From an uncultured Cohaesibacter sp. (lineage in GTDB: Bacteria > Pseudomonadota > Alphaproteobacteria > Rhizobiales > Cohaesibacteraceae), in NCBI RefSeq assembly GCF_963682185.1, contig NZ_OY821667.1:1800001-1864000 (forward strand): 64,000 bases of DNA. Direction: 5' to 3'. Positions 9,041 to 60,943 of this stretch are shown here, piece by piece. The notes below the pieces were generated by a model that saw only the letters and a program-made list of their open reading frames with translations, did not search any database and was not told the origin of the DNA. The translations under genes and the position numbers were made by a program. The stretch's first letter is position 1. The number at the start of each line of letters is the position of its first letter.

Positions 9041-9086
9041 GTTTGTGCCAGATCGCAAGAGGGCCTACGTAGCCCGGGTCAGATGC

Positions 9087-10484
9087 CTACACGATAAGAT
9101 AGGCATAGATGAGGATCCACACCGCCAATAAGCTGACAGCAACGAGAAAATAGGAGCGGTTCCACACCCGCCCGACATCAACAGTCGGGATGCCTCCAAA
9201 ACGACCAATCATCATATTGGTTGCTGTGAAAGGAGATGTCAGCCCCGTAAGCGCCCAACCAGCCAGCATGGCAACGGCAAAAGTCGTAGGGTCCAGATCG
9301 AACAATGCCGCATCCGGCAAAAGCGGAGCAACCAGAGACAGTGTCAGAATCGGGTTTCCGCCCAGCTGCCCCAGCACAGGCATGATCCACAGAAGGGCGA
9401 TCAACAGCAGCCAGGGCGGCAAGACCGTAAGATCGATCCCTGCGCGCGCCATCAGCGGCACCAGCACGGAAGATCCGACCACGCCGATATAGCCGGCGCT
9501 CATCAGCAAAAGCAGGTCCCCACGAAAGGCTGGCAGCTCCTTATGCACATAATTGACCATCCGCGCACGCACGACCGCTGCATCGCGAAACTGGATATAG
9601 AGCCAGCCCACAGAGAGCAAGGGTACGACCACCAACACAACCCCTACCACGCGAATACCCAGAAGGATTTCAAGCGCCAGCACCGGCAACAATATAACCA
9701 CCAGCAACACTGCGAGCGGTAAAAGAACGGTCCAGTGCAAATCACTTTTCACACGCTTGGGAGTGGCAGCATTGGGAGAAAGCTTCGGCTTGAAAAGTGT
9801 GTCCAACGCCCAACCAGTCCCCAGCAGGATCGCAGCGGTCACAAGTCCCGGCAGAGCAATGCTCAGCCAGGTGATCCCCGGAATAGTAGCCACGGCCATG
9901 GCTGTCGAAAAGGCCATCGGTGACCATGGCAAAGCTGAAATGAAACCGCGCTGAATAGCCAGCAACATCCGTCTCGTGCGGATTTGCCGTATCTCCTCGT
10001 CAGGCTCATCCTTGCTACTGGCCAGCGCAAGCGTTCCCAACAGCTGGATCGAGCCGAAATTAAGCAAGAGCGCATAGATCTGTGTGCCGAAGGACAAAGA
10101 AATGTAACGGCGACCAGGAGGCTGCGCGGCAAGAAAGCCCCCTGCTTTCCCCATGGCAGGAGAAGCCGATGCCGCCTCACGCAATACGGCAAGCGCACTG
10201 AAGAATGAGGCCAGAAAGCCAGTTTTGACGATCGCCGTCTGCAGCGCGGACTGCCAATCATCATTCACAATCACCATTGCCAGCGTAAGACCGGCACAAA
10301 CCAATAGAAAGATCCGCCCACCGCGCTTTGCGCTGGTGGCCATCATCCCCACCATCAGAATGAGAGCGACCATCAAAGGCCATTGCACCCACTCCACTCC
10401 GGTCCACTCCAACAGAGCCTGCATCACGATGACGAAGACAACAACCCAGCCGAAGAAGGGATCAACCAAACGCGAAAAATTCAT
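9087..10484 (-). CDS. multi-pass permease, ion-transporter-superfamily-like
   Basis: 465 residues with about eleven or twelve hydrophobic segments. Two internally similar stretches, each with a helix-break region (GSIQLLGTLALASS, LGQLGGNPILTLSLVAPLLP) and a late SPFTATNMMIGRFGG motif, recall the duplicated hairpins of the ArsB/NhaD/DASS ion-transporter superfamily, and homologues are usually annotated only as hypothetical permeases. Substrate unknown. It is convergent with the CstA-like gene and flanked upstream by tRNA-Arg. Confidence 0.6.
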   Translation of the reverse strand: MNFSRLVDPFFGWVVVFVIVMQALLEWTGVEWVQWPLMVALILMVGMMATSAKRGGRIFLLVCAGLTLAMVIVNDDWQSALQTAIVKTGFLASFFSALAVLREAASASPAMGKAGGFLAAQPPGRRYISLSFGTQIYALLLNFGSIQLLGTLALASSKDEPDEEIRQIRTRRMLLAIQRGFISALPWSPMAFSTAMAVATIPGITWLSIALPGLVTAAILLGTGWALDTLFKPKLSPNAATPKRVKSDLHWTVLLPLAVLLVVILLPVLALEILLGIRVVGVVLVVVPLLSVGWLYIQFRDAAVVRARMVNYVHKELPAFRGDLLLLMSAGYIGVVGSSVLVPLMARAGIDLTVLPPWLLLIALLWIMPVLGQLGGNPILTLSLVAPLLPDAALFDLDPTTFAVAMLAGWALTGLTSPFTATNMMIGRFGGIPTVDVGRVWNRSYFLVAVSLLAVWILIYAYLIV

Positions 10485-10714
10485 ATAAGCCTGCTTTCAT
10501 CGGGAGGAAACGTGACGAGATGAACGACGGAACAATACTGGCCTGCCGAACATTATAGCTGATAAATAGGACGGAACCCCAAGCCAAACACCGGTTTCAG
10601 CACGCACCTTGGGCACAGACATGGACCATTCTGCCTAAAACGCATAAACCGAAACCTTAAAATGGATCAAGTCTAACATTGCAGAAATATGACCGTCAGA
10701 AGAAAAAGAGGGAA

Positions 10715-10791
10715 TGGTGACCCCGGCGCGATTCGAACGCACGACCTACCGCTTAGGAGGCGGTTGCTCTATCCAGCTGAGCTACGGGGCC
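10715..10791 (-). tRNA. tRNA-Arg (anticodon CCU)
   Basis: Read on the minus strand, a 77-base cloverleaf begins GGCCCCGTAGCTCAG and ends CGGGGTCACCA, with encoded CCA. The acceptor stem GGCCCCG/CGGGGTC pairs fully with one G-U. The anticodon arm ACCGC-CTCCTAA-GCGGT gives CCU, reading AGG. The T-arm carries GTTCGAATC. Confidence 0.97.
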
Positions 10792-11041
10792 TCGTTTTCT
10801 TTCGCCAATCAACCAAAAGATGCAACATCAACAGACCCACAGCAAAAGTTTACTTTGGGTTCGCCAAGGCTTATCCATGCTTGAAAAATTTGCTAAACTT
10901 CAGCTCAGCAACACCAAGCGCGGATCGGCATTTCAAAAACGCTGACGCTCTGTATCATTTCAACAATCCCAGATCAACCAGCCACACTCGCAATTCAGCA
11001 TAACCCTTTCGATTTATTCAATTTCATGGTGCAACAGCCTC

Positions 11042-11875
11042 GTGCATAAATCTTCGTCCGCCCTAGCCATAAGCCTTTTTCTGCTGACCAGTCACGCCTA
11101 TGCAGAAGAAAAGCATGCCACGGCTTCTGTCTGTACTGAATCCGCAAGAGCTGTCGCGTTAGGCGGCCCTGTGTCCTATACACCCCCATTGACCATCAAG
11201 CAGCTTGAGCAAGGCGGTTTTACCCTCAAGGGACTAGTGCCGGACTATTTTCCCACCCCCGAGCTTAAGAGACAAAAGCAAAAGGAAATCAGTCGCTTTG
11301 TATCCAAGGCGCCATTAAAGGCCTATGTCATTGGCCATAGAAAGCCGGATCGCTACGCACGGCATGACGCTTTTCTAGCCCGCTCCGAAAATGGCAAAGA
11401 AATTCTGCTTCAAGATATTCTTGTCTCAAAGGGGCTGGCGCGGGTCTTGACTGACGGTCTGCAGAATGACTGCGTGCAACATCTTCTTTCTCTGGAAACG
11501 ACCGCTCGAAAAGCGCAGACAGGCTTGTGGAAAGAGACTGTCTATAGTGTAAAAAATACAGATGATCTCCACCTTTCTGCCATTGTGTCCACCTACCAGA
11601 TTGTTTCTGGCATCGTCTCCTCCGTTCATCGCAAAATAGATGGGACAAGCTATTTGAACTTTGGGGACAATTGGTATGAAGATTTCACCATATCGCTGAG
11701 CAAGAAGCAGCTTCAGAACTGGGAAGCCCGAAATAAATTTTTGGATGATTTACAAAACAAGCCCATATATGTTCGAGGCTGGGTAGAAGACAGTGGGGGG
11801 CCATTGATAGAGCTTCATGAAGCCAGCCAATTGATAGAGGCAGACAATAACGAAAGTTATAGCAACGCTCATTAG
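11042..11875 (+). CDS. exported protein with degenerate staphylococcal-nuclease-like fold
   Basis: 277 residues from a GTG. A signal peptide (HKSSSALAISLFLLTSHAYA) is followed by a region resembling the SNase OB-fold: DRYARHDAFL and LLQDILVSKGLARV match the YGR-x-LA and N-x-x-L-V-x-x-G-x-A-x-V motifs. The catalytic elements expected before it (DGDT, and the Arg and Glu of RLxGIDAPE) are not recognisable; LKGLVPDYF occupies the latter place. The C-terminal part may be a second OB-like domain. A periplasmic binding or scaffold role is more likely than nuclease activity. It ends four bases before an open frame leading into the M48 protease gene. Confidence 0.65.
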   Translation: MHKSSSALAISLFLLTSHAYAEEKHATASVCTESARAVALGGPVSYTPPLTIKQLEQGGFTLKGLVPDYFPTPELKRQKQKEISRFVSKAPLKAYVIGHRKPDRYARHDAFLARSENGKEILLQDILVSKGLARVLTDGLQNDCVQHLLSLETTARKAQTGLWKETVYSVKNTDDLHLSAIVSTYQIVSGIVSSVHRKIDGTSYLNFGDNWYEDFTISLSKKQLQNWEARNKFLDDLQNKPIYVRGWVEDSGGPLIELHEASQLIEADNNESYSNAH

Positions 11876-14400: not shown

Positions 14401-14446
14401 AGAATATCACATTTTTGCATATTTTCCAAACTTTGATTGTGATCAA
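14401..14446 (-). promoter_or_regulatory. FNR/Anr-type promoter
   Basis: TTGAT-N4-ATCAA is perfect at 14433-14446. About 27 bases further on the minus strand is TGA-TATTCT, an extended -10 (14401-14409). The palindrome centre would sit at about -41 to -45 from the inferred start near 14396, the class II activator position. Nothing oriented the other way has a matching -10. FNR activation under low oxygen is the known behaviour of such sites; use here is inferred. Confidence 0.6.
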
Positions 14447-23868: not shown

Positions 23869-25764
23869 CTACCGCCTCCTGAGGCGACGCGACGGTGCAT
23901 GGGGTTCCTGAGACACATTCTCGTCGAACAGCTCCGCCAGCTTCTCGGTCATGGCGCCGCCAAGCTCTTCGGCATCGATGATCGTCAACGCACGCTTGTA
24001 ATAGCGCGTCACATCATGGCCGATACCAATCGCCAACAGATTGACCGGAGAACGTGTTTCGATCTCTTCGATCACTTCGCGCAGGTGCTTTTCAAGATAG
24101 GTGCCCGCATTGACGGACAGGGTGGAATCATCGACCGGCGCCCCGTCCGAGATCATCATCAGAATCTTGCGCTGTTCAGGCCGCATCAGCAAACGCTTGT
24201 GCGCCCAATCCAGAGCCTCCCCGTCGATATTTTCCTTGAGCAGACCTTCACGCATCATAAGGCCCAGATTGCGCCGCGACCGGCGCCATGGACTATCGGC
24301 AGACTTATAGATGATGTGGCGCAAATCATTCAGACGCCCCGGATTGGCAGGCTTGTCAGCCTTCAGCCATGCCTCGCGGGATTGACCGCCCTTCCAGGCC
24401 TTGGTCGTAAAGCCAAGGATCTCGACCTTCACATTGCACCGTTCCAGCGTTCGGGCCAGAATATCGGCACAGACAGCAGCAATGGAGATCGGACGCCCGC
24501 GCATAGAGCCGGAATTATCCAGCAGCAAGGTCACAACCGTGTCGCGGAATTCGGTCTCCTGCTCCCATTTGAAAGAGAGCGGCCGCATGGGATCGGTGAC
24601 GACGCGGGTCAGCCTTGCGGTATCCAGCAAGCCTTCTTCCAGATCGAAATCCCAGCCGCGATTCTGCTGAGCCAAAAGCCGGCGCTGCAAACGGTTGGCC
24701 AGACGGGCAACAACCTGATGCATATTCTGCAATTGCTTGTCCAGATGCCCGCGCAAGCGATCCAGCTCGGCCTGCTCGCACAATTCCTCGGCATGAATGA
24801 CCTCATCAAAGGCACGAGTGAACACCTTGTAGCCCTTGTCCGGTTCATTCTTGCCATAGTCCGGTGGCATGACGGATTCGCCGGTATCATCGCCATCCAG
24901 CTCATCAAAGTCATCCATGTCCTGACTGAGCTGCTCGTCAGCCTCGGACTGGCCGCCTTCAAGATCGTCGGCACCGGCTTCTGCCTGTTGCTGTTCTTCC
25001 TGCTCACCGCCTTCGGCATCTTCGGAATTGTTGCTGCTATCGGCGTTTTCTTCCGCGCCATTGTCGGTGTCGTCGGCATTCTCTTCGCTGTCTTCAGCCT
25101 CACCGCCAAGATCATCGGCCACATCGAGATCCGCCAGAACCCGCCGCAGATGCCGGGCAAATTTGGTCTGGTCGAGCATATCCTCGCCGATAGTGTCCAG
25201 ACTGTCGCCGGCGGTCTCTTCCACCCAGCCGCGCCATTGCTCCACCAGATGATGGGCAGAATCAGGAATTGGCGCGCCGGTCAACTTCTCGCGCACCAAG
25301 AGGGACAACACATGATCAAGCGGCGCTTCTTCCACACGGGTGGAATCGCCACTGACAAAACGGCTGTAGCGGTCTTCGAGCATGGCAGAAACATTCTGCG
25401 CCAGCCCGGCCATCTGCTGGGAGCCGATGGCTTCCACGCGCGCTTGCTCAACGGCGTCGAAGACACCGCGTGCCCTTGCCCCGTCCGGAGCGAGTTTGGC
25501 ATGCACCCGCGGATCATGGCAGGCCACACGCATGGCCAGACTATCCGCCTGACCACGCAGAATTGCCGCCTTTTCCTTGGTCAGCGCGCGCGGCGGTTCA
25601 GGCAGGCGAGCCTGCCCGTTGATCAGCATCGGGCGGTCCGCCGAAAAATGCACATCCAACTCGACGGGCCCGGCAATCGCCTTGAGCGTACCGCTCACCG
25701 ATTGCTTGAACCGTTCGTTTGGATCAACAGATCCGCCCAGTTTGGATGAAGACTTGCTCGACAT
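23869..25764 (-). CDS. cobT: cobaltochelatase subunit CobT
   Basis: 631 residues. The N-terminal half is helical and carries a long acidic low-complexity region (about 220-300, rich in Glu/Asp/Asn). The C-terminal half is a von Willebrand A domain with the MIDAS motif [11 protein letters not shown] (DxSxS). With CobS and CobN it inserts cobalt into hydrogenobyrinate diamide in aerobic cobalamin synthesis. CobN is not in the window. The gene follows cobS by 51 bases. Confidence 0.97.
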
Positions 25765-48160: not shown

Positions 48161-48928
48161 TTGCTGGAAACCTTGCCCCTTTTTGCCCATACCCAGCTTA
48201 CAGAGGTGACGCTCTGGGGGCTCATCATTGCGAGCTTCTTCACATCTGCCTTCACGGCCGCCTTTGGCATTGGCGGCGGCGTGACCCTTCTGGCGATTTT
48301 AGGCATGGTCATTCCTGTAACCACGCTCATTCCCGTGCATGGCACAGTGCAGATGGGGTCCAACGCCGGGCGTGCATGGCATCTGCGAAACCATATCCAT
48401 TGGCGTCTGATTGGGCTTATTGCGCTGGGCGCTATTGTCGGCACCCTTCTTGGGTCTCAGATCGTCATCGCCCTACCCGATGCCCTTCTCAAGATCATTC
48501 TTGCCCTGTTCGTTCTGGCTATCACCTGGCTGCCCACACCAAGGCGGGTGAAAAGCGGAGATCGCACTGTTGGAGTTGGTGCTTTTATCGCTTCTCTGGC
48601 AGGCATGTTTGTGGGCGCCACCGGGCCACTGCTTGCTGCCCTCATTTCCGGCAGGATCGCCAACCGGCAAGGGGTCGTTGCCACTCATGCCGCAGCCATG
48701 ACACTCTCCCACGCCTTGAAGATCATCGCCTTCGGTTTTATCGGCTTTGCCTATACCAATTGGTTGGGCCTTATCGGCGCCATGATCCTGTCTGGATATC
48801 TGGGCACCCGCACCGGCAGCAAACTTCTCCATGTCATGGATGAGGCGCTGTTTCGCAAGATTTTCAGAGTGATCATCACGGCGCTGGCGCTGCTCATGCT
48901 TTTGGGCGCAGCCCGAAGCGTGCTGTGA
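48161..48928 (+). CDS. TauE/SafE-family sulfite exporter-like membrane protein
   Basis: 255 residues from TTG 48161, with eight hydrophobic segments and two TauE repeats (FGIGGGVTLLAILGMVIPV, GATGPLLAALISG). Family members move sulfite, sulfoacetate or other anions, so substrate is open. The stop overlaps the convergent ABC ATPase gene by 35 bases. Confidence 0.88.
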   Translation: MLETLPLFAHTQLTEVTLWGLIIASFFTSAFTAAFGIGGGVTLLAILGMVIPVTTLIPVHGTVQMGSNAGRAWHLRNHIHWRLIGLIALGAIVGTLLGSQIVIALPDALLKIILALFVLAITWLPTPRRVKSGDRTVGVGAFIASLAGMFVGATGPLLAALISGRIANRQGVVATHAAAMTLSHALKIIAFGFIGFAYTNWLGLIGAMILSGYLGTRTGSKLLHVMDEALFRKIFRVIITALALLMLLGAARSVL

Positions 48929-49637
48929 CATCCCCCATCAGAGCGTGTTCAATCTCATCGGCCAGCGCCAATTCCTGTTGCCGATTGCCCCGACCATAAT
49001 TCTCAAAACGGGTCACGATGCGACCCGGCGCGGATGTCAGCAACAAGATTTCATCGGCCAGCGCCACAGCATGGCGGGCATCATGGGTCACCATCAACAG
49101 GCCCATTCCGAGTGCATCAACATGATGACACAACAGCGCCTGCATCTGCTGGACCAAACTGAAATCAAGCCCGTGGAATGGCTCGTCCAACAGCAGCATA
49201 TCCGGTTCGACAACGAGCGCCCGCGCCAGCGAAACCCGTTGACGCATACCGCCCGAAAGCTGATGGGGAAATTGCCGATAATGCTCCTCAGGCAACTCCA
49301 CGGCCTTCAGCATAGCCGCCGCCTTTTCCTCCCGCTCACGACGAGCAGCAACCTGCCCCTTCAAGGCAAAAGCCACATTGTCGATGGCCGTCCGCCATGG
49401 CAACAACAAGGGCTCTTGAAACATCACTGAAAGACGCTGCTCGGCGCAGACAATCCGGCCAGCATCGGGCTTCAAAAGTCCAAGCATCAGAGACAACAAA
49501 GTTGTCTTGCCACATCCAGAAGGCCCCATAAGCGCCACCACTCCCTGTGCTGAGCAGGTCAGCGATATATCCGCCAGCACCGGTTGGGAGCCATAGGCAA
49601 AATGGACATTCTCGATAGAGAGCAGATTATCCCCCAT
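48894..49637 (-). CDS. ABC transporter ATP-binding protein (NitT/TauT type)
   Basis: 247 residues from ATG 49637, which overlaps the permease stop by 11 bases and has AGGAAGAAGGGGG upstream; the frame continues 26 codons further. Walker A GPSGCGKTT, signature LSGGMRQR, Walker B MLLLDEPFHGLD and His of VTHDARHA are intact. Third gene of a substrate-binding / permease / ATPase operon. Confidence 0.93.
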   Translation of the reverse strand: MGDNLLSIENVHFAYGSQPVLADISLTCSAQGVVALMGPSGCGKTTLLSLMLGLLKPDAGRIVCAEQRLSVMFQEPLLLPWRTAIDNVAFALKGQVAARREREEKAAAMLKAVELPEEHYRQFPHQLSGGMRQRVSLARALVVEPDMLLLDEPFHGLDFSLVQQMQALLCHHVDALGMGLLMVTHDARHAVALADEILLLTSAPGRIVTRFENYGRGNRQQELALADEIEHALMGDVTARFGLRPKA

Positions 49638-50424
49638 GCCTGCCCCCTTCTTCCTGCCTGCGCCAGACATGCATGCGCTCGCGCACGAGGCGCAGCAGCA
49701 GATGGTCAAGCACAATCAGGATAAAGACGACAACAACCACCCACGCCAGCAATTGGGCCGTATCCACCCGCGCCCGCGCCGCTGCGATGCCATCGCCGAT
49801 GCCACCCGAGCCAGAGAGCAACTCGGCCATAATGGAAACTTTCCATGACATGGCCAGCGTTGTGGCCAGCGCCGGATAGAGATAGGCCAGCATATGAGGC
49901 CCATAGACATCGCTTACCATCGCCCGTGGTGGCGTATGGAAGGCGCGAGCCATCCGCGCCAGATCCCCATCAAGGCTACGCACAGCTTGCAAGGCGGCAG
50001 CGAAGATCATCGGCGCGGTCGCCACGGCAACCGTAAAGACCACCGCCCACCGGCCACCAAACCACAGGAGCGCCAACACGATCCACGCGATCGCCGGAAT
50101 GCCGAGAAGGATGATGGACACCGGCTGCAAAACAAAACGCACATCCTTGAAGCGACCGGCCATGCCTCCTGCCATCACACCCATCACGACACTGATGCAC
50201 CAGCCTGCAAGCGCATTGAAGGCCGTGGCCTGAACTGCGGCCACTACCTCCCCTGCCCTGATCATCTGGCCAAGCATAACAAAGGTTTCGCCGACGCCGG
50301 GCAGCACGAGCGAGCCATAGGCAACATGGCCCACCTGCCATAGCGTCAGCATTCCCCCGACGCCGACAGCAAACAGCAGGCCCCGCCTCAAATATCCGGA
50401 ACTTTGTCGATCACGCTTGGCCAC
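49627..50424 (-). CDS. ABC transporter permease (NitT/TauT type)
   Basis: 265 residues, six predicted membrane segments, with the EAA-type loop AARMARAFHTPPRAMVSDVYGP ahead of the last pair. It follows the binding-protein gene by three bases and overlaps the ATPase gene. Substrate not determined by sequence. Confidence 0.92.
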   Translation of the reverse strand: MAKRDRQSSGYLRRGLLFAVGVGGMLTLWQVGHVAYGSLVLPGVGETFVMLGQMIRAGEVVAAVQATAFNALAGWCISVVMGVMAGGMAGRFKDVRFVLQPVSIILLGIPAIAWIVLALLWFGGRWAVVFTVAVATAPMIFAAALQAVRSLDGDLARMARAFHTPPRAMVSDVYGPHMLAYLYPALATTLAMSWKVSIMAELLSGSGGIGDGIAAARARVDTAQLLAWVVVVVFILIVLDHLLLRLVRERMHVWRRQEEGGRHGG

Positions 50425-50427
50425 CCG

Positions 50428-51444
50428 TTACCCCCAGTAAAAATCCGGCGTCGGCTTCCTACCACCAACGATGCCCGGATCAAGGCTCATCAGATGCTCA
50501 AAATAAAGCTCGATATCCGCGCGCGCCTCTTTGGCTGACTGCACATCCAGATGCACATAGGGCAGAGACTGGGCGATCACCGGCGCAGGCAGGGGAAGAG
50601 ATTGCGCAGCCAGCTTACCTGCAGCATCCCAGTTGGCCTTTATCCACTCGCCCGCCTCGACGCAGGCCTGATGCACGGCGGCAACGACCTCCGGCTTCTC
50701 TTCAAGAAAGGCAGGGTTGACCGCCAACCCCACCTGCGGAATGCGCGGCCCTCGCCCCGTGTGAGCGCCGTAAACCTTAGTGATATCAATGGCTCGATAA
50801 AGAGGCAGCCCGGCTTTTTTGGCCCGAAACAGCGCCGCAGTCGATGCGGGTTCATGCAACACGGCCACATCGCCGCGCCCTGAGAGATAAAGCGGCACCG
50901 CTTCCCCCGGCGAGCCGACATAATCCAGCGTCACATCCTTGTTCGGGTCCAGTCCAGCCCACATAAGCACAAGACGAAACAACAAATCGGGCGCTTCATT
51001 CTTGTTGGACAGCAAAACCCGCTTGCCCGCCAGATCCTCAATTCTGGTTATGCCCTCGTCGCGGGCCATCACATAGAGCACACCCCATGTCACCACATTG
51101 AGCATCACCGTGCCTGCGCCGCGATTGAAGAAATTGGCAGCAGCATAGGTGGAGGTCGCAAACAGCTTGAAGTCGCCAGAGGCAATGCCCGCCCGCATCT
51201 GGTCGGTGCTTTTCCAAACATCAAACCGCAAATCCGGCGCAATCCCCTCCAAAGCACCAGAGGCCACTGCACGGGCGAAGACGGCAGAAGGAGAGGCAGG
51301 AATGCCCCACAAGGTTAGACTGCCACCAGAAGCCGCATTGGCCGACAGGCCGCCCAGAGAGAAAGGCGCCCCGGCAACAGCCAAGCCAGCCGCCCATTTG
51401 AGCAAAGAACGCCGATCAACTTGCATGTCCGACGGTAAAAACAT
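50428..51444 (-). CDS. ABC transporter substrate-binding protein (NMT1/SsuA-like)
   Basis: 338 residues from ATG 51444 (GGGAGA about seven bases upstream; the frame extends 20 codons further). The leader has a twin-Arg-like stretch, DRRSLLKWAAGLAVAG. The mature protein has NMT1-type features: KRVLLSNKNEAPDLLFRLVL, LDYVGSPGEAVPLYLSGRGDVAVLHEP. Relatives bind sulfonates, nitrate, thiamine precursors or similar small molecules. Divergent from the hydrogenase genes across ~550 bases; whether linked functionally is unknown. Confidence 0.88.
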   Translation of the reverse strand: MFLPSDMQVDRRSLLKWAAGLAVAGAPFSLGGLSANAASGGSLTLWGIPASPSAVFARAVASGALEGIAPDLRFDVWKSTDQMRAGIASGDFKLFATSTYAAANFFNRGAGTVMLNVVTWGVLYVMARDEGITRIEDLAGKRVLLSNKNEAPDLLFRLVLMWAGLDPNKDVTLDYVGSPGEAVPLYLSGRGDVAVLHEPASTAALFRAKKAGLPLYRAIDITKVYGAHTGRGPRIPQVGLAVNPAFLEEKPEVVAAVHQACVEAGEWIKANWDAAGKLAAQSLPLPAPVIAQSLPYVHLDVQSAKEARADIELYFEHLMSLDPGIVGGRKPTPDFYWG

Positions 51445-51844
51445 CTCTATTCTCCCTTTTTCCTCAAGCTGCTCCACACCGACTAGAACACCACTAAAAT
51501 CCAAAGAGAAGAACAGAATTCAAAGCAAAATTTCGCCAACTGATCCCAAAGGATCATATTCAACAAGTCTTTTTTGTTTACAGAACTAAAGTATAAAATA
51601 TATACAACAAGGTCAAAATGCATCAATTCTCGGTATTAGTACCGCGACAAAACAACATATTAGAAATGATTTACAATTTTCCGTAAAGCACTCAATCTAA
51701 TCGCCTTTTCAAACAAATTGGATTTTATAAAAAGAATTGCCAAATATTTCACGCATTGAATTAAACATATCCAACCCAAAATCACATTCGTTGCTTTGTA
51801 GCAGTTTGACTTACCGCAAGATTTTTACCCTTTTCTGACCGAAC

Positions 51845-51943: not shown

Positions 51944-51994
51944 GCCTGGATGCCTTCCTGTTTACGTTGGTTATTCTACGCGACGGGGGTCACT

Positions 51995-53992
51995 GTGGCA
52001 CAAGTGGTGTATGGCGTTTGGGATGGGGTTGTTCATGATGCACGGCGCGATTTGCCCGGCAAGGACACGCCACTCGCAGCCTTGCGAAATTTCGACGAAT
52101 TTGACGAGGGAAATGCAGTCCGTGCCTTTTTTGCGGACAGGGGCTTTTTCGTCTTTGATGAGAGCGTCAGTCTGGTCGACGGGCTTTTTCATTATATCAA
52201 CAAGGCTGCAGAACAATCCTGCGGTGCCTGCACGCCCTGCCGCATGGGCACAGTGCTGATACGGGACGCGCTGGACAAGATGCGCCGCGGGCTGGATTCC
52301 CCGCTCGATTTCGATGATATCGAAATGCTGGCTGACCAAATGAAGGAAACCTCCCTCTGTGGTCTGGGACAGACCTGCTGCATCGCCCTGTTGGAGGTCA
52401 TCCATCACTTCCGCGAGCAAATCGAGAAGGAAGTGGCCAATCATATGCCCATCCGCGCTCAGCATGGCATGGCCTATATGACAGCTCCCTGCATCGAGGC
52501 TTGCCCCTCCAAGGTCAATGTGCCGCGCTATATCGACTATATCCGCGATGGCAAACCGGAAAACTCACTGGGTGTGTTGCTACAGAAATACCCCATGGCA
52601 GCCACCTGTGGCCGTGTCTGTGTGCGCTATTGCGAGCAGGCCTGCCGACGCAAATTCGTGGACGAGGCAGTGGGCATCAAAACCCTCAAGCGCTTTGTTG
52701 CGGACCAGCAGAAAGGGCCGCATGCCCTCAAATTCACCCGGGAAATGATCCAGAAGCCCCTCGCCGATGGCATGAAGGTCGCCGTCATTGGTGCCGGACC
52801 GGCAGGCATTTCCTGTGCCTATCATCTGCTGCTGCATGGCTATCATGTGGATGTGTTTGAAAAGCAGGATAAAGCCGGCGGCATGGCCCAGATCGGCATT
52901 CCCAACTATCGCCTGCCCAAAGATACCCTCGCCATGGAAACCGACATCATCGTTGATCTGGGGGGACGTTTCCTGTTTGGCCAGCAATTGGGAGCCGACT
53001 TCACCATCGACGATCTGTTCCAGCGCGGTTACAAGGCGGTCTTCCTTGGCCTTGGCTGTCAGGAAGGCACCATGTTGGGCCTCAAGAATGAAGAACAGGT
53101 GCGCGAAGGCTATTTCACCGGCATCGATTTCCTGCTCAAAGTACATGACCATGTGGATGGCATTAACACCTTCCAGCTCAAGGGCGATGTGGTGGTCGTC
53201 GGTGGCGGCAACGTTGCCATGGACTGCGTCCGCTCGGCGGTCCGCCTTGGTGCCGACAATGCTCACCTCATCTATCGCCGCACCCGCGATGCCATGCCTG
53301 CCGACACTGAAGAGGTGGAAGAAGCAGAGAAGGAAGATATCGACTTCCACACCCTTTGCACACCGACCCGCATTATCAGCGAGAATGGCAAGATTATCGG
53401 CATTGAACTGGTTGAGATGGAAGAAACCGAGCCGGACGAAAGCGGTCGCCGAAACGTGCGCCCCATCCCCGGCACGGAACATGTCATGGCCTGCTCAACG
53501 GTCATTGCCGCCATCGGCCAGCAGGTGGAAAGTCAGGAACGCATTGCCGAGGAAGGCATCGACTTCAACCATTGGAAATGCGTGGAAGCGGACAAGTCCC
53601 TGACCACCTCCCGACCTGGCGTCTTTGCCGGAGGGGACTGCGTTACCGGCCCCTCCACCCTCATCTACGCCATGTCGGCAGGGTTGAAGGCCGCACGCAG
53701 CATCGACGACTGGATCCAGTTCGGCACGCCGCGCTTCTTCAAGCGCTCTCGGATGCGCGAGCTGATCAACGAGAATGCCTTCCTCGCCAATGACGCCGTA
53801 GAAACGCCGGTGCGCAATGGCTATCGCGTGCATAATCCGGCGCTTGATCCGGATTTGCGCAAGAAAATGTTCGGCGAGGTGGAACAGACCATCAGTCTGG
53901 AAGACGCCTATACCGAGGCGCAACGCTGCATGCGCTGCTATCGCCTCTATTCCGTCATCACCAAGCATTCCATCCCCGAAGGAGCGGCCTGA
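51995..53992 (+). CDS. hydrogenase-linked NAD(P)/FAD oxidoreductase, NuoF C-terminus fused to GltD-like module
   Basis: 665 residues from GTG 51995, with GGGGG five bases before it; an ATG at 51950 in the same frame has no ribosome site. In order: a NuoF-type [4Fe-4S] end (SCGACTPCRMG and SLCGLGQTC; Cys about 76, 79, 82, 122) without the NuoF FMN/NADH domain; an Fe-S domain like GltD/DPD (Cys about 166, 170, 205, 209, 213, 217); FAD site GAGPAG (about 266); NAD(P) site GGGNVAMD (about 403); and CMRC near the C-terminus. It most likely passes electrons between NAD(P)H and the [FeFe]-hydrogenase encoded three bases downstream. Direction of flow is not shown by sequence. Confidence 0.85.
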   Translation: MAQVVYGVWDGVVHDARRDLPGKDTPLAALRNFDEFDEGNAVRAFFADRGFFVFDESVSLVDGLFHYINKAAEQSCGACTPCRMGTVLIRDALDKMRRGLDSPLDFDDIEMLADQMKETSLCGLGQTCCIALLEVIHHFREQIEKEVANHMPIRAQHGMAYMTAPCIEACPSKVNVPRYIDYIRDGKPENSLGVLLQKYPMAATCGRVCVRYCEQACRRKFVDEAVGIKTLKRFVADQQKGPHALKFTREMIQKPLADGMKVAVIGAGPAGISCAYHLLLHGYHVDVFEKQDKAGGMAQIGIPNYRLPKDTLAMETDIIVDLGGRFLFGQQLGADFTIDDLFQRGYKAVFLGLGCQEGTMLGLKNEEQVREGYFTGIDFLLKVHDHVDGINTFQLKGDVVVVGGGNVAMDCVRSAVRLGADNAHLIYRRTRDAMPADTEEVEEAEKEDIDFHTLCTPTRIISENGKIIGIELVEMEETEPDESGRRNVRPIPGTEHVMACSTVIAAIGQQVESQERIAEEGIDFNHWKCVEADKSLTTSRPGVFAGGDCVTGPSTLIYAMSAGLKAARSIDDWIQFGTPRFFKRSRMRELINENAFLANDAVETPVRNGYRVHNPALDPDLRKKMFGEVEQTISLEDAYTEAQRCMRCYRLYSVITKHSIPEGAA

Positions 53993-53995
53993 GCC

Positions 53996-55855
53996 ATGTG
54001 CACCACTGAGCCCATCAGCTATGCCGGACGCGATCCTGCCGAGGCAACCATCAAGCTTCAGATCAACAACAAACAATGCATGGCCTTTCCCAACGAGACC
54101 ATCCTGTCCTGTGCGCGACGCCACGATATCTACATCCCAACCCTGTGCGAGCTGGATGATATCGATCACACGCCGGGCACATGCCGCGTCTGCGTCGTGG
54201 AAATCACCCATTCAAAACACAATGGCGCGCAGATCGTCACCTCTTGCAACACTCCGGTGCGCGAAGGGATGACCGTCCAGACACGCTCCAAAAAAGCGCG
54301 CGACATGCAGAAGCTGCAGGTCGAGCTGCTAATGGCAGACCATCTGCAGGACTGCGCCACCTGTATCCGTCATGGTGATTGCGAGTTGCAGGACGTGGCC
54401 CAATATGTGGGCCTGACGGAAAACCGCTTCTTTGACCGGCTTCTGGCAGAGAGCCGCCCGGTGGACGAAGCCTCCACATCCATGATCCGCGACATGCGTC
54501 GCTGTATCCGCTGTCAACGCTGCGTTGCCATTTGTCGCGATCATCAGGGCATTGATGCCCTCGTCATGGAAGGCACCGGCAATGACCGCGTCGTTGCCCT
54601 GCGCGATGGCACCGATCCTCTGAGCAATATCTGCGTCTCCTGCGGACAATGCGTTCTGGTCTGCCCCACCGGGGCGCTGGGCGAGAGAGACGAAATCGAC
54701 AAGGCACTTGATTATATCTGTGATCCGGACATCACAACGGTGGTCCAGTTTGCGCCAGCCGTGCGCGTTGCCTTTGGCGAAGAATTCGGCATGCCAGCGG
54801 GCACCAATGTGGAAGGTCAGGTGATTGCCGCCTGCCGCAAGATCGGCGTCGATATCGTGCTCGACACAAATTTCGCCGCTGACGTCGTCATCATGGAAGA
54901 AGGCACCGAGCTGCTCGGCCGCCTCAAGGAGGGCCGCAAGCCAACCTTTACCTCTTGCTGCCCGGCATGGATCAATTTTGCCGAAACCCACTATCCCGAT
55001 ATCCTGCCCCTGCTGTCGTCAACCAAATCACCCCAACAGGTGCTTTCGACCATTGCCAAGGCTTACCTACCGGAAAAACAGGATATTGCCGCCGACAAGA
55101 TCCGTGTCATCTCCATCATGCCCTGCATCGCCAAAAAAGACGAAGCAGCCCGCCCGCAATTGGGTGAAGCAGGCAAGCAGGATACCGACGTCGTGCTGAC
55201 CACCCGAGAATTCGCTCGCCTTTTGCGCCGCGAAGGGATCGACCTCAAGACCATCAAGCCTTCCAGCTTCGACAACCCGTATATGAGCGAATATTCTGGC
55301 GCTGCCGCCATCTTCGGCACCACGGGCGGCGTCATGGAAGCAGCCGTGCGCACCATCTATTCTGTCGTCAACGGCAAGGAGCTCGACAAAGTGGAGCTTA
55401 CCCAGCTGCGTGGCTTTGAAGGAGTGCGCGAAGCAACAGTCAATCTGGGAGGCCCAATCGGCGAGGTCAAGGTGGCCATGGTCCATGGGCTGGGTGACAC
55501 GCGCAAGCTGGTGGAAATGGTCCGCTCTGGTGAAGCCGATTATGACTTTATCGAGGTCATGGCCTGTCCGGGGGGCTGCGTCGATGGCGGCGGCTCCCTG
55601 CGCTCCAAGAAAGCCTATCTGCCGCTGGCCATGGCGCGGCGGGAAACCATCTATAATGTCGACCGGAAAACCAACGTGCGCCAGTCGCACAAGAATATGC
55701 AGGTGCAGGCCCTTTACAGGGATTTTCTGCAAGCGCCAAACTCGGAAAAAGCCCATCACCTGCTGCATACGCACTATGAGGATCGCCGCAAGGACCTTCA
55801 GCATACGGTGAAGGAAATCTGGGACAATCTGTCCATGAGCTCGGTTCTCTATTAG
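53996..55855 (+). CDS. [FeFe]-hydrogenase, M3-type
   Basis: 619 residues with every cofactor motif of the Clostridium pasteurianum CpI layout: [2Fe-2S] Cys 51, 63, 66, 84; His116-Cys120-Cys123-Cys129 [4Fe-4S]; two further [4Fe-4S] (Cys 170, 173, 176, 180 and 213, 216, 219, 223). H-cluster ligands are Cys322 (TSCCPAW, with proton-relay Cys321), Cys377 (MPCIAKKDE), and Cys524 and Cys528 (MACPGGCVDGGG). It should catalyse reversible H2 formation and be oxygen sensitive. Linked with a GltD-like flavoprotein, it fits the HydDB group A2 idea (glutamate-synthase-linked). No HydE, HydF or HydG in the window. No signal peptide, so cytoplasmic. Confidence 0.96.
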   Translation: MCTTEPISYAGRDPAEATIKLQINNKQCMAFPNETILSCARRHDIYIPTLCELDDIDHTPGTCRVCVVEITHSKHNGAQIVTSCNTPVREGMTVQTRSKKARDMQKLQVELLMADHLQDCATCIRHGDCELQDVAQYVGLTENRFFDRLLAESRPVDEASTSMIRDMRRCIRCQRCVAICRDHQGIDALVMEGTGNDRVVALRDGTDPLSNICVSCGQCVLVCPTGALGERDEIDKALDYICDPDITTVVQFAPAVRVAFGEEFGMPAGTNVEGQVIAACRKIGVDIVLDTNFAADVVIMEEGTELLGRLKEGRKPTFTSCCPAWINFAETHYPDILPLLSSTKSPQQVLSTIAKAYLPEKQDIAADKIRVISIMPCIAKKDEAARPQLGEAGKQDTDVVLTTREFARLLRREGIDLKTIKPSSFDNPYMSEYSGAAAIFGTTGGVMEAAVRTIYSVVNGKELDKVELTQLRGFEGVREATVNLGGPIGEVKVAMVHGLGDTRKLVEMVRSGEADYDFIEVMACPGGCVDGGGSLRSKKAYLPLAMARRETIYNVDRKTNVRQSHKNMQVQALYRDFLQAPNSEKAHHLLHTHYEDRRKDLQHTVKEIWDNLSMSSVLY

Positions 55856-56272
55856 AGGGCAGAACTAGAACATCAAAACGGGTCGGGTCTGCGCATCAGG
55901 GCAGGTCCGATCCCCGCTCCTGCAAGAGATCGACATTGAGCGGAATCCGACAGCTGATTTCAAGATTGCGGTTCGCGTGGACAACCGTCCAATCTCCCCC
56001 CCAAAAAATCTGCAGTATACACCACCGTCCTCATCGGTCATCACAATAGCCCTCGATACCGTGAAAAATCAGCACCAAACAACCTTAAGATGTATAGACA
56101 TATTTAACTATGGTTAATTTGGTGTTAATCTCTCCTCTAAGTTTCGGATATGTCTAGATAAAACTGATCCTTTATATTGATTATAAAAGTCATCGATCAA
56201 TGGTCATCAGCCGAGCGCAGGGCGACCTTGCATCGAGAACCGTGTTTTTCATTCCTTGGGGGAGGATTGATC
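55856..56272. other. intergenic region after hydrogenase
   Basis: About 417 bases. GGGTCGG-GTCTGC ... GGCAGGTCCGATCCC near 55881-55916 could form an imperfect hairpin after the hydrogenase gene, without a T-run. The right half is AT-rich and probably carries the promoter of the CheB-CheR gene. No gene. Confidence 0.35.
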
Positions 56273-59200
56273 ATGAGTAAAGATACTGATTCCGAACAGC
56301 TTTCGGCGACACCGGACCAAGAAGCGCTCGAACAGAAAGAGCAGGACGGGGCAGCCCCTTCGGAAAGCACCAAAGCAGATGCATCTGAACAAATATCGCA
56401 TGCGCCCGCAGAAGAAACAGTTCCGGACGATCCGCAAACAGAGCCCCGTCAAACAGACAATCCGATTCGCATCGTTGCGATCGGCGCGTCAGCAGGTGGG
56501 TTGGAGCCGATCGAGCAGTTTTTTGATGCCTTACCCACAGACCCCAATGTGGCATTTGTCATCATTCAACACCTCTCTCCCAACTTCCAGTCGATGATGG
56601 ATCAGTTGATCGCCCGCCACACGCATATGCGCATCGTCCATGCGGAAGATCAGATGGCAATCGAACCCAACGTCATTTATCTCAATCCGCCCCGAACCGA
56701 ACTCCTGATAAAGAATGGCAAACTCTCGGCAACCGCCTATCCCGACAATGATATGCTGAGCCTACCCATCGATGCCTTTTTCACCTCTCTGGCCAAGGAA
56801 GAGGGCGAGCATGCCATCGGGATTGTCCTGTCGGGAACAGGATCGGACAGTACCAGAGGCAGCTTGCAGATCGTACAACATGGGGGCGTTGTCATCGCGC
56901 AAGAACCCTCCACGGCCAAGTTCGACTCCATGCCCCGCAAGGTCATCGACACCATCAACACGGCTTATGTTGCAGATGTGAAGGACATGCCGGAAATCCT
57001 TCGAGCGGTGATCAGTGGCTCAGAGGTTCCCCGCCCGGAACCGGAAGCCATAGATGCGAACAATCCTGAATCCCGCATTCTGGCCATCCTGCAAAAATCC
57101 TACGGCACGGATTTCACCTTCTACAAGAACGCCACCATCCATCGCAGAATTCAGCGCCGCGCTTTGCTCAAGCGAGAGGCCAGCCTCGACAAATATTGCG
57201 AGAGCCTGCTATTCGACAAAGAAGAGATGGACATCCTTTATTGTGACCTGCTGATTGGGGTCACCGAATTTTTCCGCGACAAGGAAGCCTTCGAGGCACT
57301 CAAGTCCAAGGTTCTGCCCGAACTTGTTGCAACGATGACTGCGGAGAGACAAATCCGGATCTGGGTTCCCGGCTGTGCAACCGGTGAGGAAGCCTATTCC
57401 ATCGCCATACTGGTGAGCGAAATCGCCAAGCGCAACGGCATCACGCCCAACCTCAAAATATTTGCAACCGACATCCATTTCAGATCCCTCGAAATCGCGG
57501 CAGAAGGAAGCTACAACGCCGAGAGCGTTGCTCATATTCCAGAGACATTGCTCAAGACCTATTTTGATTTTGTCGACAACCGCTATCAGGTGAAGAAAAG
57601 CCTCCGGCGCAAGGTCGTCTTCTCGACGCAAAATCTGCTCAAAGACCCGCCCTTTACCAAGATAGATCTGGTTACCTGTCGAAATTTATTGATTTATTTC
57701 AATGAATTGGCCCAGCGCAAGGTGTTGTCACTGTTCCATTTTGCCCTCAAGGAGAAAGGACACCTTTTTCTGGGGTCAAGCGAAACCGTGGGCCATCTGG
57801 ATGAAGAATTTGCCTCCATCGACAAGAGATGGCGCATCTTCCAGAAAAAACGCAACAGCCAGATCCGTGATGCGGCCTTCTTGATGCCCGCCTCGTCACG
57901 CTCAAAAGAGGGCACGGAAAATGGCCTTTCCCTAAGAGAAACGCGCTCTCACAATCTGGCGGCTGCCAAAAAGGAAAGTCTCACCCGCCAAGCCCTCTAT
58001 GGCGCCTATGACAGGTTGCTAGAGCGGTATGCGCCGACAGGGTTCCTGATCAATGACCTTGGCGAATTGATGCATATCTTTGGCAATGCGGACAAATTCC
58101 TGCAGGTCCGCAAGGGGTTGTTCAGCAATCGCATCACGGAACTGGTACAGTCGGATCTCAAACTCGCGATCACGTCTGGCATCGAACGCGCCATGACGAT
58201 CAACCACGAACCAGACTTCGAGCGCTCCGTCCAGATCAAGGATTCCGAAGACAATCTGACCCGTCTGACCATCCGGGTTACCAAGATCCTGAATGTGGAA
58301 AGCCACAGTGTTTTCCTGCTGATCACACTGGAAGAGAGGAAATCAACGCTTTCCGAGCGAACAATCAAAGACAGCAACGCCCCCATATTGGAACATGAAG
58401 AGATCTATCTCAGCCGCATTGCCGAACTGGAAAATGAACTTCGCTCGACGGGTGAAAGCCTTCAGACCACCATCGAAGAGCTGGAAACGAGCAACGAGGA
58501 ACTGCAAGCGACAAACGAAGAACTGACCGCCTCCAACGAGGAACTGCAAAGCACCAACGAAGAACTGCATTCGGTCAACGAAGAGCTCTATACAGTCAGC
58601 GCCGAGCATCAACGCAAGATTGTTGAACTGACAGAAATGACGGATGACATGGAGAATCTGCTGCGCAGCACGCAGATCGGGACCATCTTTCTTGATGAAG
58701 AGGCAAAAATCCGTCGCTTCACACCAGCCTCGACAAAAGCCTTCAACCTGATGCCCCATGACGTGGGCCGCCCCATCGGCCATGTCACTTGCCGTTTTGA
58801 CAGCACCGATTTGCTGGCCCACACGCTGGAAACCATCACCAGAGGCACCGAACATTCAAGAGAAGTCGAGTGCGATGGCGTAAGCTACATGTTGAATATT
58901 TTGCCCTACAAGACCGAACTGGAAACCATCACCGGCGCCGTCATTACCGTGTTTGAAATCGATGAATTGAAGCGCGCGCAGGAGCGCGTGAAACAAGAAC
59001 GCGAATTCTACAAAACCGTCGTCGATCTACAGAGCGACCTCATCTGCCGCTTCAAGCCGGACACGACCATAACATACGCCAACAGTGCCTTTCATGCCTT
59101 CTTCAACATCGATCCGGACGCCATAAAGGGCACCCTTTTCAAAAATCTTTTGAAAACCCCGCAAAAGGAAGATCTGGTCAACGCGATTGAAAATCTGGAG

Positions 59201-60943
59201 CAGGATGTCTCCATTGAATGGGAGTTCAAACAGGCAGACAAGTCCAGCAAATGGCTGCAATGCCGCTTCAACATCCTGCGAGACGAGCATGGAGCGATTT
59301 TCGAGATACAGGCGGTCTTGCACAATGTGACGGAGATTGTCGAACGGGAAAATCTGATCAGCGAGTTCAACCGCATAGCGGCGAGCACCAATCTTGACCT
59401 CAACGACAAGATCGAGCGCATTCTGACCCGCGTATCCGAGGTTTCAAGGCTACCTGCTGCGCTGAAAATAAGTTTCGAAAATCAGCAGATCGAAGTCGAC
59501 ACCATTATCGGGATGAAAAAGGGCAAGCTCTCGGTTGGGCAGACCTTCTCAACCCCGTGCGCTTCTTGCCAGCATGCTCTGACCTCTGATGAGGACATAC
59601 CCTATAGGGATTATTTCATCGCCTGCATTGTCCGAACCACAGACATATTCCATTCCAAAGGCTATCAAACGGTCATTGGCGCACCGACCATGAGCAATGG
59701 CGAGGCCAACGGAGCCATACTATTTGCCTCGAAATTCCCCATCAGCAAAAGCTATCTTGAGAATTACCAGCCGATAGTCGACCGCATCGCCGACTGGATT
59801 GGCTATGAGTTGTTTCGCAGGGACCAGCAAGAGAAGCTGGAAATGCTCAACAACATGTTCATGGAAGAAGAGGAACGCTTCCGCAAGCTCTATATGGAAA
59901 CTCCGGTCATCATGCATTCCCTCGACAAGGATGGCATTATTGTTGAGGCCAATGAAGAATGGCTCACAACGCTGGGCTATGAACGCGAGGAAGTCATTGG
60001 CCACCATTGGGAAGAATTCATGACGGAGGCCTCAACGCAATATGCCTATGAGGTGGTATTGCCTCAGACCACCCAAATTAAGCAGGCCGACAATATTCCT
60101 TTCCAGATGGTCAAAAAGGACGGAGACATCATAGATGTAGAAATGTCGACCATCATCGTCGCAGACGGCAAAGGCGTTGAACAGACGCGCACCGTGCTGG
60201 CCGATGTGTCCGACAGGGTGCGAGCGGAAAAGGAACTCGAAGCGCACAATCAGGAACTCAAGCTGATCAACGAGAATCTCAATCAGTTCACCCATATCAT
60301 CAGTCACGATTTGGCAGGGCCGCTTCGCGCCATCCAGCACACCGCCACATGGATCGAGGAAGATCTCGACGAAAATACCCAAAACGAGATCCAGGAGCAT
60401 ATCGACCGGCTGAAGGACCAGATTTCGCATCTGGGCAGCCTGATCGCAGATCTTTCAGATTACTCCAAAGCCGGTTCGAATGTTCAGGAGGCTGAAGAAA
60501 TCAATCTGACCATCAATCTGCAAAGCATCTTCGATATCGTGGACCGCAGCGACGCCATCCGCTTTGAAACCAGCCTGCCACAGGAGAGCATTCACACCTA
60601 CCGTGCGCCCCTGTTGCTCGTGCTGCGCAACCTGATTGAAAACGCCATCAAATATCACGACAAGGACAATGGCGTGGTGAAGGTTTGGCAGGAAGATCTG
60701 GGCGATGCATGGGCCTTTGCTGTCTCCGATGATGGACCGGGCATCGACCCCAAGCATCACGGCAAGATCCTGCTCCCCTTCAGGAAGCTGGAACGCAAGG
60801 ACAAGGTTCCCGGAAACGGCATGGGACTGGCATTGGTCAAGAAAGCCATTGAGTCCGTAGGCGGAACGCTGACAATCCTCTCGGATCCTTCCATGGAGCC
60901 GGGCACGACATTTCGTTTCACCTGGCCCAAACAAGGAAAATAG
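56273..60943 (+). CDS. CheB-CheR-PAS-GAF-PAS histidine kinase fusion
   Basis: 1556 residues from ATG 56273, with GGAGGA six bases upstream; 32 further codons upstream are disregarded. Order: ~60-residue charged leader; CheB methylesterase with Ser73 (GASAGG), His100 (QHLSPNF), Asp192 (GTGSDSTRG); CheR methyltransferase (about 265-540; [21 protein letters not shown]); coiled coil of NEEL repeats (about 730-790); PAS domains; a GAF-like region; a further PAS; HisKA with His about 1345 ([12 protein letters not shown]) and HATPase ([25 protein letters not shown]). It is cytoplasmic. Partner regulators are likely the two convergent genes. Confidence 0.93.

Follow-up and report, generated by a model that had tools for sequence, protein, structure and literature searches.

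The genus Cohaesibacter retains, under purifying selection, a gene pair encoding an [FeFe]-hydrogenase catalytic subunit (HydA) and a flavoprotein partner, in genomes where the maturases HydE, HydF and HydG (HydEFG) were not found. The pair was studied in a window of 64,000 nucleotides, this being the whole stretch analysed, from an uncultured Cohaesibacter sp. (RefSeq assembly GCF_963682185.1, contig NZ_OY821667.1, forward strand, positions 1,800,001 to 1,864,000), whose genome is a single contig of 5.39 Mb. Judging from its sequence, the pair most likely belongs to the [FeFe]-hydrogenase family as an enzyme of two subunits that is linked to NAD(P)H. Sequence comparison establishes its anatomy, the maturases not being found, the purifying selection, and an ATP-binding cassette (ABC) transporter as a recurrent neighbour. 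Our explanation, which we hold tentatively and at somewhat less than even weight, is that the hydrogenase domain of this genus works without the [2Fe] subcluster made by HydEFG and serves as the end at which electrons leave an NAD(P)H oxidoreductase. An Fnr/Crp-type regulator probably controls the pair, whose role would be tied to what the transporter imports.

The two genes lie on the forward strand and are separated by three bases, the stop of the flavoprotein gene ending at 53992 and the ATG of the hydrogenase gene beginning at 53996. The flavoprotein open reading frame as listed begins with an ATG at 51950. We place the start at the GTG at 51995, because it aligns with the ATG of relatives and because in-frame stops lie directly upstream of the equivalent position in three genus members (L179, L187, and L189; loci are labelled L and genomes G, with three digits). 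Family matches in Pfam and NCBIfam rule out chance reading frames for both genes. HydA exceeds the cut-off of the group A model TIGR02512 (521 bits against 405.95) and stays below that of the A6 model NF040763 (722 bits against 765); its Pfam matches are PF02906 (9e-90), PF02256 (3e-21), and NuoG-type N-terminal Fe-S domains. According to the literature, 21 positions of the enzyme CpI, in the H-cluster or the proton path, are important for function. When these were mapped by alignment on CpI (PDB 7qhf), HydA carried the same residue at 20, and at the remaining one it has Ala for Ser232, as do 85 of 100 aligned HydA rows. HydA is thus a group A [FeFe]-hydrogenase by sequence definition, passing TIGR02512 with intact H-cluster motifs.

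The flavoprotein matches PF10589, the NuoF C-terminal Fe-S segment (6e-22), PF14691 (6e-22), and PF07992 (1e-29). An alignment of 20 flavoproteins shows no variation at the four NuoF-type cluster cysteines or at six cysteines in the Fer4_20 part. NuoF family models of NCBIfam match only over their C-terminal 100–120 residues, and neither Pfam nor NCBIfam gave a match to the NuoF flavin mononucleotide (FMN)/NADH domain. The GltD-family matches in NCBIfam are all below those models' own cut-offs, next to the Pfam matches PF14691 and PF07992. The best three matches by sequence and fold are two NfnABC large chains (PDB 9n5u_A and 9bov_A) and StnC (8oh5), and NfnB-type chains also match the GltD-like part in both respects; the predicted model behind the fold search (mean predicted local distance difference test score 76, predicted template modelling score 0.67) is adequate for a fold match, not for fine geometry. 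The first-pass annotation had described the pair in much these terms: its coordinates and three-base spacing hold up against the reading frames and the GTG alignment, its intact H-cluster and Fe-S ligands agree with the CpI mapping and the invariant flavoprotein cysteines, and the domain matches confirm a GltD-type partner with a NuoF-type [4Fe-4S] end and no NuoF FMN/NADH domain, hence not HydABC. Its two-subunit reading fits the anatomy, and the proposed passage of electrons from flavin adenine dinucleotide (FAD) through Fe-S clusters to HydA would agree with the likeness to the solved Stn domain.

The GltD-like domain of Stn takes electrons from NADPH at an FAD that does not bifurcate, and passes them into a linear Fe-S chain (PMC10482914). 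The flavoprotein has a YRR motif that aligns with StnC and NfnB-type chains and is invariant in the 20 flavoproteins, which suggests NADPH as a likelier donor than NADH. An Arg discussed for bifurcation in the Stn paper is also present, but decides nothing, since it is found both in enzymes that bifurcate at that site and in StnC. As no match to an FMN domain, and none to a second nicotinamide site, was obtained with either protein of the pair, bifurcation of the HydBC type is not expected. Among 80 loci listed, six (L095, L100, L113, L118, L125, and L164) have beside HydA a protein of ~1000–1030 residues, whose later part matches the flavoprotein and which has ~370–430 extra N-terminal residues; the short form is found at L087–L093 (L088 being cut by its contig). 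The extra residues are probably the remainder of NuoF, and the short flavoprotein may have arisen by loss of the NuoF front half.

Maturases were sought by profile searches only, HydF at an expectation value (E) of 0.001 in the genus and of 1e-40 in relatives and other alphaproteobacteria. HydF (TIGR03918) was above cut-off in none of the 18 genus genomes, with a best match of 81 bits limited to the GTPase part of the model. Among the 13 genus genomes with HydA, none had HydG (TIGR03955, best 31 bits) or HydE (TIGR03956, best 58 bits) above cut-off, and the six single-contig genomes of the genus all agree. In each maturase search one of 14 control genomes was above cut-off (for HydF, T. maritima). 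Where HydF was found in relatives or other alphaproteobacteria, the best match scored 423–609 bits; in the relatives taken by themselves the scores were 480–609 bits. In the window's genome, the F420 enzymes CofG/CofH account for the match to HydG and for the top two to HydE, a third HydE match there is weak (26 bits), and the best HydE match of the genus (in G007) is BioB. No maturase was recognised among the annotated neighbours of the pair, a set of 20 submitted proteins that covers not every neighbour and includes a 33-residue stub of L176. As a separate observation, genes for CofG, CofH, and CofD lie side by side in the window's genome (L086, G000:C1:4961302-4965087), as a locus of coenzyme F420 biosynthesis.

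With HydE, HydF, and HydG below cut-off in the window's genome and in its hydrogenase-bearing congeners, the genome does not point to an H2-active enzyme of the conventional kind; the first-pass annotation had overlooked maturation. That the maturases exist but have diverged beyond the reach of the family models, or were lost from the assemblies, we regard as quite improbable. A protein that has diverged strongly could go unnoticed in profile searches, even in a loose initial one, and HydF also went unseen in nine of 23 other alphaproteobacteria with PF02906; on the other hand, the single-contig genomes speak with one voice, the HydF scores of relatives are far from the 81 bits of the genus best, which covers the GTPase part alone, and the best radical S-adenosylmethionine matches examined are F420 and biotin enzymes.

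Full-length HydA was found in 13 of the 18 genus genomes and in none of the 43 other genomes of the same search; of the five without it, one (G004) is only 64% complete. PF02906 was present in 24 genomes of a class-wide sample of 385 and in 34 of an order-wide sample of 397, the latter being 13 of the genus and 21 from four other families. [FeFe]-hydrogenases, which the first-pass annotation had called rare in the class, are thus uncommon there, albeit not exceptional. One genus member, G001, has a second, distant PF02906 protein (L259, G001:C1:3438000-3453000; 626 residues, 24% identity to HydA over 335 columns), the only such case of the genus in the order-wide search. The pair locus was examined in 15 of the 21 order genomes outside the genus; in G629, G664, G694, G720, G732, and G777 only a HydABC-like copy was read. 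Fourteen of the 15 loci contain HydA and all or part of the flavoprotein, with hydrogenase identities of 56–79%; in G744 and G787 the contig stops within the flavoprotein, and HydA stands alone at a contig end in G724. One stop lies within the flavoprotein match of L245 (G610, 9077-11083). Among the matches listed, named carriers of the pair include an Ancalomicrobiaceae metagenome-assembled genome (MAG), Rhodovulum sp. PH10, Xanthobacteraceae Astr-EGSB, a Mailhella MAG, and a Desulfobulbaceae MAG. The pair is accordingly not confined to the window's organism, and extends to several families of the order and beyond. Plasmid carriage was considered and rejected: of the plasmid records, 15 matched with an E of 1e-60 or lower, each at less than 60% identity.

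Most relatives of the genus that carry HydA are equipped with HydF, which was above cut-off in 18 of 23 genomes (the 21 order relatives, PH10, and Astr-EGSB). It was not found in G474, G509, and G714, nor in PH10 and Astr-EGSB, which also lack a HydG match. Two loci (L246 and L243, of genomes G670 and G574) have the operon flavoprotein-HydA-HydG-AspA-HydF, AspA being an aspartate ammonia-lyase. Because relatives carry the pair in an operon with HydG and HydF, the pair must descend from a conventionally matured hydrogenase. In a tree of 43 HydA sequences, including 10 of the 13 from the genus, pair-bearing rows form one strongly supported group of 29, in which L094 was included although its flavoprotein is unseen at a contig end. 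HydF is absent at two places of the tree: clade A, comprising the genus and g15 (12 rows, support 100/100), and clade B, comprising G714, PH10, and Astr-EGSB (3 rows, 100/99). Forcing A and B into one clade was rejected by the approximately unbiased (AU) test (p-AU 0.004), for a grouping named after the first tree had been seen. The genus as a single clade was neither shown nor rejected (p-AU 0.33), so that transfer between g1 and g15 is possible.

Selection was estimated from the ratio of nonsynonymous to synonymous substitution rates (dN/dS) in nine genus members of the main clade, with pairs at dS ≤0.3 dropped; 31 of 36 pairs were kept for HydA and the flavoprotein, and 30 for a neighbouring M20 peptidase used as control. 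Mean dN/dS was 0.046 for HydA (mean dS 0.89), 0.036 for the flavoprotein, 0.048 for the peptidase, and 0.111 for the transporter's binding protein, of which rows L187 and L188 were left out because of a stop inside the cut stretch. HydA has an open frame without internal stops in all 13 carriers, and these values together rule out a pseudogene. The wider idea that the pair is a non-functional leftover of a hydrogenase operon, now being lost, would suit the maturases not found and the genus members without HydA; it is disfavoured as very unlikely, given the same values and the retention of HydA together with its flavoprotein partner.

The active-site domain was compared with the rest of the protein by the dN ratio of the H-domain to the N-terminal Fe-S part, with domain borders following the first row of each group. 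This ratio was 0.61 in clade A (5 rows), 0.78 in clade B (3 rows), and 0.57 in a HydF-bearing group (4 rows); by plain distances it was 0.68 in A, 0.76 in B, 0.59 in g371/g372, and 0.88 in the outer HydF-bearing rows. No fixed site change is shared by A and B and missing elsewhere. At otherwise invariant sites clade A has one private change (I555V) and clade B two, one of which turns the T of TSCCP to S in all three rows. The HydA of Astr-EGSB also has His where CpI has R286, which is unique among the 100 aligned rows. Clade B is counted as the less clean case on account of its ratio, the TSCCP change, and this His, and its hydrogenase domain may have undergone some drift. In the genus, the sequences give no sign of relaxed selection on HydA, and the domain is kept as it was.

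In the mechanism we propose, the FAD bound by the GltD-like part would accept a hydride from NAD(P)H. From there, electrons would leave singly through the two [4Fe-4S] clusters of that part, reach the NuoF-type [4Fe-4S] cluster, and continue through the NuoG-like clusters of HydA to the hydrogenase domain, which in the window's genus would be used without the HydEFG-made [2Fe] subcluster. Regulation of the Fnr/Crp type is probable, as is a link to the substrate imported by the divergent ABC transporter. The electron route, the preference for NADPH, the regulation, and the acceptor are what we infer. We lean towards a hydrogenase domain that does without the HydEFG-made [2Fe] subcluster, since none of the known means of making it was found.

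Several observations weigh against this reading. A change of job after loss of the cluster should bring drift or remodelling of the active site, and the genus shows none (I555V only, with a ratio of 0.61 against 0.57); the conserved active site fits continued H2 chemistry at least as well. The transporter is also found beside the pair in HydF-bearing relatives (L244, L251, L254, and L258). HydA without HydF is moreover not special to the pair, since nine of 23 other alphaproteobacterial genomes with PF02906 show no HydF at E 1e-40 (G098, G129, G149, G150, G226, G232, G243, G261, and G430; seven are rated 96–100% complete, G129 78%, and G226 80%).

Because the active site is unrelaxed, a maturation route of another kind stays well alive: the pair would then be a functional hydrogenase, dependent on NAD(P)H, that acquires its H-cluster without HydE, HydF, and HydG. 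We consider this possible, if clearly less probable than a domain lacking the subcluster. It would account for the CpI-like residues at 20 of 21 cluster and proton-path positions, the remaining one having the common residue, for the unrelaxed H-domain of the genus, and for the persistence of the pair without HydF at two places of the tree. Giardia and Entamoeba have HydA but are not known to have the HydEFG maturases, and H2 release has reportedly been seen in Giardia. Conversely, no alternative maturation system was recognised among the annotated neighbours, we know of no such system for the H-cluster, and all biochemically matured [FeFe]-hydrogenases known to us need HydEFG or a synthetic [2Fe] mimic. 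The fuller proposition, that two alphaproteobacterial lineages make a functional H-cluster without HydEFG by an undescribed route, for a minimal hydrogenase of two subunits that is linked to NAD(P)H, is more doubtful still.

The transporter that we tentatively link to the pair comprises a substrate-binding protein, a permease, and an ATPase (Table 1). Of 33 loci examined, 16 have all three genes close to the pair, and in 15 of these 16 they are adjacent and divergent, as in the window; not all three were seen in the other 17, some of which are short contigs. The divergent arrangement occurs in three families, with and without HydF, and the aligned starts are ~410–610 bp apart. A TTG-N8-CAA box resembling Fnr/Crp sites, searched for without a chance control, lies 184–202 bases before the start in nine of 14 intergenic regions examined. 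No match to the consensus FNR palindrome with up to two mismatches starts between 51003 and 54155; a perfect FNR-type palindrome, TTGATTGTGATCAA, is found far from the pair at 14433-14446. Rfam gave no match in the window's intergenic region or in eight related loci. Downstream of the pair, at 56177-60943, a 1588-residue CheB-CheR-PAS-histidine kinase hybrid is encoded, of which a relative is present in seven of eight other main-clade genus loci. Elsewhere in the window, at 23869-25764 on the reverse strand, lies a CobT cobaltochelatase subunit (899 bits).

Table 1. Features of the gene pair and its upstream neighbourhood (positions in the window).
Feature	Position	Strand	Basis
Flavoprotein gene, 665 residues: NuoF C-terminal [4Fe-4S] segment, Fer4_20, and GltD-like FAD/NAD(P)H module	51995..53992	+	Open reading frame, Pfam, NCBIfam, alignment
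NuoF-type [4Fe-4S] segment (PF10589); C76, C79, C82, and C122 of the 665-residue protein	52193..52429	+	Pfam, alignment
Fer4_20 (two [4Fe-4S] clusters, by homology) and GltD-like FAD/NAD(P)-binding part; YRR motif aligned with NADPH-binding StnC and NfnB-type chains	52454..53719	+	
Group A [FeFe]-hydrogenase catalytic subunit (HydA), 619 residues, with NuoG-type N-terminal Fe-S domains	53996..55855	+	Pfam, NCBIfam, alignment
H-cluster domain (PF02906); motifs TSCCPAW, MPCIAKKDE, and MACPGGCVDGGG intact	54737..55591	+	Pfam, CpI mapping
Candidate TTG-N8-CAA (Fnr/Crp-like) box TTGACTTACCGCAA	51806..51819	+	Motif search, without chance control
NMT1/SsuA-like substrate-binding protein, recurring beside the pair in divergent orientation; weak twin-arginine (Tat) signal match below the Pfam cut-off	50428..51504	-	
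ABC permease, same transporter	49627..50424	-	Pfam
ABC ATPase, same transporter	48894..49715	-	Pfam

Among the closest known systems is the glutamate synthase-linked class A2 of HydDB, a likeness that the first-pass annotation had pointed out and that our analysis supports. In HydDB (PMC5037454), A2 is defined by a GltD-type neighbour and its role is called undetermined; a full-text literature search for glutamate synthase-linked together with hydrogenase returned this paper alone. As in A2, a group A catalytic subunit has a GltD-type protein encoded alongside, on the strength of the Pfam matches with NCBIfam GltD matches below cut-off. The differences are that the partner of the window is upstream, not downstream, that it carries the NuoF C-terminal Fe-S segment, and that no maturases were found in the genus. 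HydDB, by a CDD rule of its own, defines A2 as having no NuoF domain in that protein; of NuoF, Pfam and NCBIfam detect the C-terminal segment alone. The long fusions beside HydA in Moorella, Syntrophorhabdales, Halanaerobium, and others have a NuoF C-terminal segment followed by GltD, as the flavoprotein does, and differ by their further N-terminal residues.

StnC of the Stn transhydrogenase likewise has a GltD-like FAD/NADPH domain feeding an Fe-S chain, but supplies the bifurcating FMN module StnAB, whereas the flavoprotein would supply HydA, and the pair has no FMN module that could be seen next to it. Stn has NuoG and GltD parts in one chain, the pair has them in separate chains, and none of the six window proteins scanned is StnA- or StnB-like. 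The NfnABC large chains are, by the titles of their structures, parts of electron-bifurcating transhydrogenases and not hydrogenase partners. The bifurcating hydrogenase HydABC (A3) has a HydA chain of the same group A; membership there was rejected, as no HydB-type FMN/NADH domain was matched in the partner. An account of HydABC-like bifurcating enzymes (PMC9304861) contains none of five GltD-related terms.

A maturase-less hydrogenase has been met before in this class. Degli Esposti et al. 2016 (PMC4967309) report that hydrogenases of the Rhodospirillum rubrum type were judged probably inactive or of a different role, the maturases lacking, and that other alphaproteobacteria, Pleomorphomonas included, have all maturases. 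R. rubrum resembles the window's organism as an alphaproteobacterium with HydA in a maturase-less genome, and its gene may or may not belong to such a pair. Compared with that report, the present analysis adds that HydA is retained across a genus, that a second lineage is without HydF, and that selection in the genus has not relaxed. With HydDB A2 published and the R. rubrum case in print, both the class and the maturase-less oddity are already known. In the passages and literature listings consulted, no account was found of retention in a second HydF-less lineage, of unrelaxed selection, or of the transporter linkage, which is no proof that none exists.

HydDB A2 gains from this work a probable electron route grounded in anatomy and a recurrent transporter neighbour. 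An [FeFe]-hydrogenase is generally held to need HydEFG, and nature offers a test in this genus, where strong selection maintains the residues of the active site although these maturases were not found. Either the H-cluster can be made by other means, or selection maintains the hydrogenase fold for a function that depends on those residues and not on a [2Fe] subcluster. The two answers should be distinguishable, because the pair is small and close relatives with and without maturases exist in one order.

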